DNA from: a bacterium | GTDB taxonomy: Bacteria; UBP15; UBA6099; DSWB01 | Length of the DNA: 10,896 nucleotides | Assembly (NCBI GenBank): GCA_020061125.1 | Contig: JAGUYV010000478.1 | Span: forward strand, 1 to 10,896 | Reading direction: 5' to 3' | Shown here: piece after piece, positions 3,970 through 6,298 of the stretch | How positions within the stretch are numbered: position 1 is the first letter of the stretch | Layout: every line of letters starts with the position of its first letter | Notes under the pieces: model-generated | The model's database searches: none | Seen by the model: only the letters and a program-made list of their open reading frames with translations | Told to the model about the DNA's origin: nothing | Position numbers and translations under genes: made by a program

Positions 3970-4073
3970 GATGACGCCCTCCTTTTCTGCTATTTTACGC
4001 CCGCGCCGCGAAAAGTGACATGGAGAAAATATTATCGTGCACGGCGCGTGTTGCATCCCGCGCCGAATTATGT

Positions 4074-4100
4074 TAATGTAATAGCGGCGATTGCCGATAA
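4074..4100 (+). promoter_or_regulatory. Sigma-28 (FliA-type) promoter of the fliN-like gene
   Basis: The -10 box GCCGATAA (4093-4100) matches the enterobacterial FliA consensus at all 8 positions. An exact 11-nt spacer separates it from TAATGTAA (4074-4081), which matches TAAAGTTT at 5 of 8 positions. The expected start near 4107 leaves a leader of about 65 nt to the ATG at 4172. The downstream gene is a flagellar switch-type protein, which independently fits sigma-28 control. Confidence 0.75.
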
Positions 4101-4171
4101 TATATGCATGCGCACGCACGCGGGCGCGGCACGCGCGTTTCCATTCGCGCGACGACAACCGGAGGCAGGGC

Positions 4172-4465
4172 ATGGCCGAACAGCAGAAAGACCGCAAAAT
4201 CGCGATGATCCACGATGTGGGCATGCAGGTCAGCGTGGAGCTGGGCCGCACCGACAAGTTCTTCAAGGACATCCTGCAGATGAAACCCGGCTCCGTGCTC
4301 GAGCTGAACACGCGCACCGGCGACCGCATTGATTTCCTGGTGAACAAACGCCTGGTAGCGCGCGGCGAGGTCATGGTCATTGACGGCAAATACGCCCTGC
4401 GCATCACCGACATCGTCGGCTCGCTCAAACAGGCCGTTCAGGAAGGGCTTGAAGACTGGTCCTGA
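4172..4465 (+). CDS. fliN: Stand-alone FliN-like SpoA-domain protein (flagellar switch/C-ring family)
   Basis: The 97-residue product is almost entirely one SpoA (FliN/YscQ C-terminal) domain. [21 protein letters not shown] (20-40) matches the family's V-x-V-E-L-G-R-T plus K/Q-x-x-x-[28 protein letters not shown] (56-82) matches L-V-N-x-x-x-x-A-x-G-E-V-V-V followed by I-T-D-I. FliN proteins form the lower part of the flagellar C-ring, bind FliM/FliH and take part in rotation switching and export. The short N-terminus (about 18 residues before the domain) is minimal for FliN. The ATG at 4172 has GGAGG (4161-4165) 6 nt upstream; an in-frame TTG at 4091 overlaps the promoter -10 and is rejected. 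No fliM, fliG or fliP neighbours are present, so this is an orphan copy and may be a paralogue. A type III secretion SpoA protein is the main alternative, disfavoured by the sigma-28 promoter. Confidence 0.85.
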
Positions 4466-4529
4466 CCGCGCGGCCCGGATCGTTCACCACCCACCCCTTA
4501 ACTCCTCGAAACCGGGACAACTTCAACGC

Positions 4530-4547
4530 AGGGGCCGCCGCGCCCCT
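4530..4547 (+). other. GC hairpin between fliN-like gene and obg
   Basis: AGGGGC (4530-4535) and GCCCCT (4542-4547) form a perfect 6-bp stem with a 6-nt loop, 20 nt before the obg start. There is no T-tract after it, so it does not look like an intrinsic terminator; it could affect translation initiation of obg or be neutral. Confidence 0.3.
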
Positions 4548-4567
4548 CGTTACGGAAACGAAAACCC

Positions 4568-5545
4568 ATGTTTATAGACCGCATTGAAATCACGGCAAAG
4601 GCCGGGCGCGGCGGCGACGGCTGCGTGAGCTTCCGCCGCGAAAAATACATCCCCCGCGGCGGCCCGGACGGCGGCAACGGCGGCATCGGCGGCTGCGTCA
4701 TTCTCAAGGCCCGCGACAAAGTCCCCGACCTGTCTTCCCTCCGCCACAAGTCCACGCACAAGGCCGAACACGGCGCACCCGGCGGCAAAGCCCGCAGACA
4801 GGGCCGCAACGGCAAAGACTGCGTAATCCATGTGCCCGTGGGCGCCATGGCCTGGGACGCGGACACCGGCGAATTCCTCGGCGAACTCCTCGAACACGGC
4901 GCCCTGCTCACCATCGCCCAGGGCGGCAGGGGCGGCGACGGCAATGTGCGCTTCGCCTCTCCCACCAACCGCGTGCCCCAGCAATGCACGCCCGGCACGC
5001 CCGGTCAGGAACGCCGCGTCACGCTCGAATTCGCCATCCCCGCGGACGCCGCCCTCGTAGGCTTGCCCAACAGCGGCAAATCCACGCTCCTGCACGCGCT
5101 CACCAACGCCAGCCCGCAAATCGCCGCTTACCCCTTCACCACCACCGAGCCGCACATCGGCGTGTGCGAAATCTCGCCCTACGCCCGCCTCATCGTGCTC
5201 GACCTGCCCGCCCTGTGCGCGGGCGCTTCCGGCGGACAGGGCCTTGGCAACTGGTTCCTGCGCCATCTGCACCGCGCGCGGCTCATCCTGTTCGTGCTCG
5301 ACCCTGCGGACGCCCAATCCCCGGCCGAGCAATTCCGAACCCTCGACCGCGAGCTGCGCGACGCGGAAATCCCCCTGAACGAAAAGAAACTGCTCATCGC
5401 TGTCAACGAAAAACAGCCGCTCACCCCGGACCAGATCGCGGAAATCAACGCGCTCGGCATCCCCTGGGAAGCGCTCAACCCCGCCAAAAACAACGCCACA
5501 GCCGCGCTCAAAGCCCGCCTGGCGGAACTGCTTGACATCGAATAA
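4568..5545 (+). CDS. obg: Obg-family GTPase-like protein with degenerate G3-G5 motifs
   Basis: Obg/CgtA proteins are essential ribosome-associated GTPases in large-subunit assembly and (p)ppGpp-linked growth control. This 325-residue product has a full glycine-rich Obg fold: VSFRREKYIPRGGPDGGNGG (20-39) and QGGRGGDGNVRFASPTNRVP (118-137). The G domain then begins with an intact P-loop GLPNSGKST (165-173) and switch I YPFTTTEPHIGV (188-199). G3 is DLPA (212-215) instead of D-x-P-G. G4 is NEKQ (280-283) instead of N-K-x-D, losing the Asp that reads guanine, and no S-A G5 is evident. The frame is continuous and otherwise well conserved, so it is not an obvious pseudogene. The C-terminal OCT/TGS extension is absent. 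The usual upstream rplU-rpmA pair is missing; the fliN-like gene lies 102 nt upstream with no clear terminator between. Only a weak Shine-Dalgarno (ACGGA) precedes the ATG. It may be the lineage's only Obg or a divergent second copy. Confidence 0.9.
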   Translation: MFIDRIEITAKAGRGGDGCVSFRREKYIPRGGPDGGNGGIGGCVILKARDKVPDLSSLRHKSTHKAEHGAPGGKARRQGRNGKDCVIHVPVGAMAWDADTGEFLGELLEHGALLTIAQGGRGGDGNVRFASPTNRVPQQCTPGTPGQERRVTLEFAIPADAALVGLPNSGKSTLLHALTNASPQIAAYPFTTTEPHIGVCEISPYARLIVLDLPALCAGASGGQGLGNWFLRHLHRARLILFVLDPADAQSPAEQFRTLDRELRDAEIPLNEKKLLIAVNEKQPLTPDQIAEINALGIPWEALNPAKNNATAALKARLAELLDIE

Positions 5546-5717
5546 CCCCGGCCGCCCAGCGCTGCTGAATCCTCCCGGTCACGAAATGAAAAAAGCAAAA
5601 AAGGGACTGGGAACGCGGCGTTCTTCCGCGTGCCTGTACCTGTTTTATACGTCCGCCGCGCTACCCCCCCCCTGCGCCCCGCGATTTCACCCCTTGCCCG
5701 TTTTTGAACGACTCTTT

Positions 5718-5741
5718 TCTCCGCGTCTCCGTGTCTCCGCG
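5718..5741 (-). repeat. Three tandem 8-nt units (TCTCCGYG)
   Basis: Units TCTCCGCG, TCTCCGTG and TCTCCGCG follow each other without gaps; on the minus strand they read CGCGGAGA-type. Related CGGAG-type units recur at 6619-6685 (plus strand) and 6790-6823 (minus strand), so this is one member of a small family of degenerate intergenic arrays. Confidence 0.6.
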
Positions 5742-5864
5742 GTATCCTTGCCCGCCAAAGGTTTTCTTCCCGCGCTTGCACTTAACAACCCCTCCGCCGA
5801 CAAAACAAAAATATCGCCTTAATAAAAGGTTTTTTTATTCCAAAAAATATTTTTGAGAAAACAT

Positions 5865-5891
5865 TTAAGTTTTCCTCAAGATCGCCGATAA
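5865..5891 (+). promoter_or_regulatory. Sigma-28 (FliA-type) promoter of the flgM-like gene
   Basis: TTAAGTTT (5865-5872) matches the TAAAGTTT consensus at 7 of 8 positions, followed by an exact 11-nt spacer and GCCGATAA (5884-5891), an 8 of 8 match to the FliA -10. It lies in an AT-rich island; the expected start is near 5898, about 24 nt before the ATG at 5922. This is the better of the two sigma-28 promoters in the window. Confidence 0.85.
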
Positions 5892-5921: not shown

Positions 5922-6230
5922 ATGGAAATTACAAACATTCCAAAACTTCCGGCCCAAAAGGCAGAGGAATCGCAAAAGGTTAACCGCGTTCCTCCCAAAG
6001 CGGGCAGCAACGCCTACGCCGCCAGCAAAGCCGCGGACCAGGCAGACATTTCGCCAAAGGCCCGGCAACTGCTCCAATTGCGGGAATCTTACCGCAAACT
6101 CGACGACGCCAAAGAGGAAAAAGTCGAGGCCCACAAGCTGGAGGAAAAGCTGGAGCAAGGTGTGACCAAGCTCTCTTCGGAGGAAATCGTGAGCAGCATC
6201 CTTCACGGGACGCTGTTCGAGGTCGTCTAA
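5922..6230 (+). CDS. flgM: FlgM-like anti-sigma-28 factor
   Basis: FlgM binds sigma-28 (FliA) and holds late flagellar genes off until the hook is complete and FlgM is exported. The 102-residue product has the right size and pattern. Its N-terminus is low-complexity, polar, probably disordered (about 1-40, rich in Ala, Lys, Gln). It is followed by ADISPKARQLLQLRES (41-56), like the family's V-x-I-S-x-x-A-x-x-L. Then EEKVEAHKLEEKLEQG (65-80) and SSEEIVSSIL (85-94) match the sigma-binding segment (R/E-x-x-K-V-E-A-L-K-x-x-I-x-x-G ... D-x-x-x-I-A-x-x-L-L). The key support is the near-perfect sigma-28 promoter in front, the expected autoregulated class 3 control. ATG 5922 is preferred over GTG 5913 because AAGG (5909-5912) is 9 nt upstream. 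The protein is divergent, so other small helical export substrates are possible. The gene is monocistronic, ending in an intrinsic terminator. Confidence 0.75.
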   Translation: MEITNIPKLPAQKAEESQKVNRVPPKAGSNAYAASKAADQADISPKARQLLQLRESYRKLDDAKEEKVEAHKLEEKLEQGVTKLSSEEIVSSILHGTLFEVV

Positions 6231-6261
6231 CCTTTTCGCCTCGTTGGGTCAAAACTTAAGC

Positions 6262-6298
6262 AAACCCTATACCTTGGTTAGGGTTTTTTGCGTTTTTT
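6262..6298 (+). terminator. Intrinsic terminator after the flgM-like gene
   Basis: AAACCCTA (6262-6269) and TAGGGTTT (6279-6286) form a perfect 8-bp stem with a 9-nt loop, running into a T-tract (6284-6289) and a second T run (6293-6299). It lies 31 nt past the stop codon. Confidence 0.88.

Follow-up and report, generated by a model that had tools for sequence, protein, structure and literature searches.

The enterobacterial FliA/FlgM class-3 feedback is one of several described systems with which the locus analysed here can be compared. E. coli also has the sigma-28-dependent small RNAs UhpU, MotR, FliX and FlgO, of which three pair with flagellin mRNA; they derive from UTRs, find their pairing site within the fliC coding sequence and act on other targets as well (Melamed 2023, PMC10578931). 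In Campylobacter, CjNC1 and CjNC4 are short FliA-dependent RNAs whose action in an E. coli reporter did not need Hfq (PMC4626219); CJnc170 is FliA-dependent, and CJnc230 is RpoN-dependent and targets flgM (PMC11187230). Campylobacter flagellin is, in addition, under CsrA-FliW control (PMC4894983).

We analysed one entire contig of 10.9 kb (the window) from a genome of UBP15, a candidate phylum for which literature is almost absent; a literature search on UBP15 flagella gave nothing relevant. The genome (G000; 4.1 Mb, 79% complete) was compared with its six nearest relatives (G001-G006; C numbers denote contigs). Pattern searches and simulated genomes gave the genome-wide scale, and position weight matrix (PWM) scoring was applied to selected stretches. 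As in the enterobacterial circuit, there is a FliA orthologue, a FlgM-family protein and a sigma-28 promoter before flgM, with further sigma-28 promoters before flagellins, flgL and fliD. Unlike that circuit, G000 has two divergent flgM paralogues, each with a sigma-28 site; its flgM lies outside flagellar clusters, and the promoter spacers are 11 and 12. Like the E. coli RNAs, the two RNAs that we predict would be small, under sigma-28 and able to pair with flagellin mRNA, but they would be free-standing genes, each complementary to a single flagellin start, over 24/25 nt in one case and over a split 15+8 nt in the other. By description they also resemble CjNC1, CjNC4 and CJnc170, which are short, depend on FliA and act on flagellar messages. 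The Campylobacter RNAs, however, have as their predicted or shown targets the 5' UTRs of sigma-54 genes or, in the case of CJnc230, flgM, and not flagellin starts. The flgL-fliW-csrA-flagellin control that is known from Bacillus too has its gene order repeated on G000:C51, as read from translations, and differs in that G000 would add a sigma-28-dependent RNA complementary to the same Shine-Dalgarno sequence and start codon. We found no report in the open-access literature of free-standing sigma-28 RNAs near-perfectly antisense to a single flagellin start. FliA-dependent RNAs on flagellar messages are thus known already, and antisense RNAs for single flagellin starts look like the apparently new element. 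Our main reading, to which we assign a probability of about 0.76, is of a flgM unit, a separate fliN-obgE unit and two flagellin-repressing RNAs in one FliA regulon.

Sigma-28 sites and the probable flgM unit

The genes around the sites discussed below encode an M50 peptidase, TrpS (which we take to be so by eye), ScpA, ScpB, MscL, a FliN-like protein, ObgE, an FlgM-like protein and a GH1 glycosidase. The features of the window are as follows.

4051..4079, plus strand: predicted sigma-70-type promoter of fliN-obgE, TTGCAT-N17-TAATGT, with an extended -10 TG at 4071-4072
4074..4100, plus strand: weak sigma-28-like site of putative function, overlapping the -10 of the sigma-70-type promoter
4172..4465, plus strand: fliN-family gene, 97 aa, single SpoA domain (PF01052, 7e-23), first of the fliN-obgE pair
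4568..5545, plus strand: obgE (GTP1/OBG GTPase; PF01018, 1.5e-53)
5865..5891, plus strand: predicted sigma-28 (FliA) promoter of flgM, one mismatch to the consensus
5922..6230, plus strand: flgM-family anti-sigma-28 gene, 102 aa, ATG start matching that of relatives
6233-6259, minus strand: third match of sigma-28 type, lying antisense to the flgM 3' end
6262..6289, plus strand: intrinsic-terminator-like hairpin and T run after flgM, fold -11.4 kcal/mol

The first-pass annotation of this DNA had described two matching sigma-28 promoters, and both sites are where it placed them: TAATGTAA-N11-GCCGATAA at 4074-4100 (-35 5/8, -10 8/8) and TTAAGTTT-N11-GCCGATAA at 5865-5891 (-35 7/8, -10 8/8). It had seen no third copy of the -10 box, and GCCGATAA indeed has just two occurrences in the window, at 4093 and 5884, both on the plus strand. 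Allowing up to 3 mismatches, the window contains 3 consensus matches, against 0.03 expected. The third, at 6233-6259 on the minus strand, had been missed; it reads TTAAGTTT-N11-GGCGAAAA, has a PWM score of 20.8 that falls among those of accepted sites (chance expectation 0.8 in a genome and 0.002 in a window), and could yield an antisense flgM transcript.

FliA itself, whose presence had been proposed as a check, is encoded in G000 (profile search, 254.8 bits against a cut-off of 189.6), where it also matches E. coli FliA structures, and in all six relatives, one copy being cut by a contig end. Scans with spacers of 11 and 12 placed good sites before flgL (16/16), fliD and the window flgM, and before the flagellins on C200, C275, C422 and C472; the second flgM, on C497, is also preceded by a site. 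Judged from these sites, FliA of this UBP15 genome reads the enterobacterial consensus at spacings of 11 or 12 bases, so the suggestion that this consensus is nearly unchanged holds good. Perfect matches outnumber those to a reversed control pattern by 2 to 0 in G000 and by 9 to 0 across the seven genomes, and what follows them is flgL, flgM, another short gene or a predicted RNA. Matches with up to 3 mismatches number 24 genome-wide, against 36 for the reversed control; weak matches alone therefore mean little. That every sigma-28 match considered here arose by chance would fit the latter counts, yet it is contradicted by the perfect matches and the genes behind them, and we give it almost no credence; for the 5865 site it is already refuted. 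The enterobacterial sigma-28 code would then work nearly unchanged in an uncultured phylum, whose class-3 flagellar genes would be readable from sequence.

Reading every 3-mismatch match as a promoter was rejected, the count being no higher than that of the reversed control, as were the matches on C314 and C464, both inside long open frames. Sigma-28-like sites were also seen at G000:C456:621-1320, before a 199-aa protein of no recognised kind, and at G000:C391:2518 on the minus strand, before a short YjfB-like protein.

The two plus-strand sites of the window differ in strength. The 5865 site has a leave-one-out PWM score of 28.1 bits; none that good is expected per genome, and simulated genomes contained 0 sites as good (1 mismatch). 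Sites as good as that at 4074 numbered from ~6 (spacer-12 score) to 24 (spacer-11 score) in the simulated genomes. Taken alone, the 4074 site is at background level and the 5865 site above it. The flgM homologues of G001, G002 and G006 have sigma-28 sites in the same place. By score and conservation, the predicted promoter at 5865-5891 is a genuine FliA promoter driving flgM.

The description of the downstream protein as FlgM-like stands on its family and not on its own domain score: the window protein matches PF04316 with E=4.4e-4 and 20.8 bits, under the 25-bit cut-off, but 5/6 family members match the FlgM domain (best 2.4e-7), and the family profile matches the solved FlgM structures 9wsf (1e-5) and 1rp3 (0.006). 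Its C-terminal sigma-binding segment aligns to the C-terminal half of 9wsf_B and 1rp3_B. On these matches the protein is a divergent, FlgM-like one. Because a hairpin and T run lie 3' of flgM, the gene is likely a single-gene transcription unit. From 5865-5891, FliA would drive its own antagonist FlgM, closing a feedback loop. A flgM behind sigma-28 is ordinary biology; the twist is that there are two paralogues, each with a sigma-28 site, the second (G000:C497:1613-1984, minus strand) being 42% identical to the first. G006 also carries two flgM genes.

The proposed fliN-obgE unit

The protein following the 4074 site had been called FliN-like, and its SpoA domain bears this out (80.8 bits against a cut-off of 23.8), as do matches to the FliN structures 1o6a and 8umd. 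Orthologues occur in 6/6 relatives, are 69-72% identical and are followed by obgE in each. In the relatives, the fliM-linked SpoA protein is separate and longer, and the obgE-paired FliN, which is not in the fliM operon, is an extra copy. The fliN-obgE pair (window 4172-5545) is kept throughout the order and lies away from the fliM operon.

Upstream of fliN, all 7/7 genomes share a sigma-70-type pattern, TTGC-N17-TAnnnT with a TG one base before the -10 (TTGC..N14-TG.TA...T). It has 5 matches in 548 kb (both strands), each before fliN, a count that illustrates specificity and is no independent test, the pattern having been derived from these same sequences. The TAATGT that serves as -35 box of the 4074 site is the -10 of this promoter, and a housekeeping promoter makes sense with obgE downstream of fliN. 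The 4074 site scores 15.5 (N11) or 17.9 (N12) by PWM, against 19.7-29.6 (leave-one-out) for accepted sites. We propose that fliN-obgE would be a separate unit read from the conserved sigma-70-type promoter at 4051-4079, on which a weak sigma-28-like match is superimposed.

In the flagellar system of Salmonella and E. coli, some genes are known to carry an early as well as a late promoter. The 4074 site might likewise function as a sigma-28 promoter that this lineage acquired on top of the housekeeping one; fliN, and with it obgE, would then rise with active FliA. The 8/8 -10 box of the site and its correct spacing, ~70 nt before the fliN start, agree with this, and its N12 score is close to those of two presumed real sites, before sRNA1 of G001 (17.2) and sRNA2 of G000 (18.7; both RNAs are described below). 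The chance of finding a perfect GCCGATAA at such a position ahead of a flagellar-type gene is ~1e-4 for a given 200-nt stretch; since such placement is unlikely by accident, we keep a superimposed sigma-28 promoter as a possibility, at slightly less than even odds. Against it, the site is the lowest-scoring of the gene-linked sigma-28 candidates, its -35 half is accounted for by the conserved -10, no sigma-28 match was found upstream of fliN in the six relatives, and ~6 equally good matches are expected per genome.

With fliN-obgE read as a separate unit, the proposal that two promoters define one late-flagellar locus is left with its flgM half: that promoter is real and kept in relatives, whereas the fliN site scores lowest, has no counterpart in relatives and overlaps the conserved sigma-70-type promoter. 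The position outside any flagellar cluster applies to the 10.9-kb contig, but in G001, G002 and G003 a single contig carries both fliN-obgE and the fliM cluster, ~25 kb apart. The neighbourhood of flgM and fliN-obgE is particular to G000; in G001 and G002 the gene after obgE is proB, and flgM is on a different contig.

Predicted sigma-28-dependent RNAs and flagellin starts

Following the sigma-28 code led to candidate RNA genes, which are invisible to protein-based annotation.

G000:C352:2662-2765, plus strand: sRNA1, predicted from sequence; perfect sigma-28 promoter and ~70-nt terminator-ended RNA
G000:C235:1255-1145, minus strand: predicted sRNA2 with its promoter; sigma-28 site at 1229-1255, then a conserved segment and terminator
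G001:C156, from 2597 down: predicted sRNA2 of G001, with a perfect sigma-28 site

G000 has two perfect sigma-28 sites, and the sRNA1 promoter (G000:C352:2662-2689) is one of them. The locus lies between what we take, by eye, to be valS and an atpI-like gene. Reading it as a small-protein gene was rejected, as there is no convincing ORF at the promoter. In its predicted fold, the RNA has a hairpin of 7 bp and a strong terminator (-33 kcal/mol, z -5.2). BLAST found homologues in G001, G005 and G006, each behind a sigma-28-like site, the G006 copy being ~385 nt away from the homologue closest to the window flgM. The first 20 bases are identical in the four genomes, and the flanks have diverged. 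The terminator stem has two compensated pairs, as seen in four sequences only and equalled by 53/500 shuffles. A scan of the sRNA loci against Rfam gave nothing, with no match for sRNA1 at the gathering threshold.

The 5' segment of sRNA1, GAGUUGAAGUUAGUGUUGcCGAUUG, is antisense at 24/25 positions to the start of the flagellin on G000:C173 (AUG GCA AUC GUC AAC ACU AAC UUC AAC UC, MAIVNTNFNS). The only exact matches to the 25-mer were, in G000 and in G001, sRNA1 and a single flagellin start, and, in G005, sRNA1, the flagellin start there having 3 mismatches; a control for the 25-mer had no matches in the seven genomes. The predicted duplex reaches -41.9 kcal/mol, against a mean of -16.8 (sd 3.4) and a best of -26.6 for 107 other gene starts, for which a slightly shorter RNA segment was used. 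Among 84 flagellin-domain starts from the seven genomes, the strongest pairing was with the NFN-type flagellins of G000, G001, G002 and G006 (-39 to -42 kcal/mol) and G005 (-34), the NFN-type being the best-pairing flagellin in all five genomes that have one. In G002 the target flagellin is present and sRNA1 was not found by BLAST; in G003 and G004 neither sRNA1 nor an NFN flagellin was found. No sigma-28 site of their own was found within ~330 nt of the sRNA1 targets in G000 and G001. From its promoter, lack of an ORF, terminator, conservation and pairing, sRNA1 is predicted to be a sigma-28-dependent trans-acting sRNA.

A reversed flagellin fragment could in principle have become an RNA gene with no regulatory role, and a duplication could give 25 nt of near-identity to one gene. 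We think this improbable: the paired segment is the part unchanged in four genomes amid diverged flanks, every copy retains a sigma-28-like promoter and the terminator with its compensated pairs, and pairing with the NFN flagellin persists where codons have changed (G006, G002), partly through G-U pairs.

sRNA2, found in G000 and G001, contains the conserved segment AAUGAUUGACAUGGUUGCUG[C/U]UAGCCACAGCAACUCCUCCU, followed by the terminator. Its AUGAUUGACAUGGUU is the exact complement of AACCAUGUCAAUCAU, 15 nt across the start codon of the flagellin linked to flgL-fliW-csrA on C51, and its CUCCUCCU complements AGGAGGAG, 8 nt at the Shine-Dalgarno sequence of the same flagellin. Outside the RNA genes and this target, the scanned stretches contain no ATG with more than 11 bases complementary to sRNA2. 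The pairing energy is unremarkable (z -2.4), because the CUCCUCC of sRNA2 pairs with many Shine-Dalgarno sites; since the energy is not outstanding, the pairing of sRNA2 is less certain than that of sRNA1.

Proposed role of the RNAs

Sequence comparison provides the sites, their conservation and the complementarity; from these we infer transcription, repression and its direction. Most likely, sRNA1 and sRNA2 would each pair with a single flagellin mRNA at its translation start and keep it from being translated, and active FliA would switch on late genes and flagellin-specific repressor RNAs together. We consider it somewhat more probable than a coin toss that FliA in UBP15 bacteria transcribes two or more free-standing antisense RNAs, each for one flagellin start among about twenty, as a switch that sets filament composition when the late programme starts. 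Since the sRNA1 target is without a sigma-28 site, such a switch would replace that target by sigma-28-dependent flagellins. If so, bacteria with many flagellins may choose among them by sigma-28-driven antisense RNAs.

The RNAs might instead activate or stabilise flagellin mRNAs, or sponge CsrA. Pairing across the start codon and Shine-Dalgarno sequence usually means repression, and that is the geometry here, so we regard these alternatives as unlikely; a single GGA motif would also make a poor sponge. In their favour, E. coli MotR and UhpU raise flagellin, whereas FliX lowers it (PMC10578931), sRNA1 has an unpaired AGAGGA, and the sRNA2 target follows fliW-csrA, where CsrA control is expected.

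The flagellin set of G000 is unusually large, the flagellin N-terminal domain being matched 21 times in the incomplete genome, flgL counted. One flagellin of a different type, on C328, pairs at -37 kcal/mol through the 3' arm of the sRNA1 hairpin; the arm sequence GCAACACCCU complements AGGGUGUUGC just before the C328 start codon, making this flagellin a possible second target.
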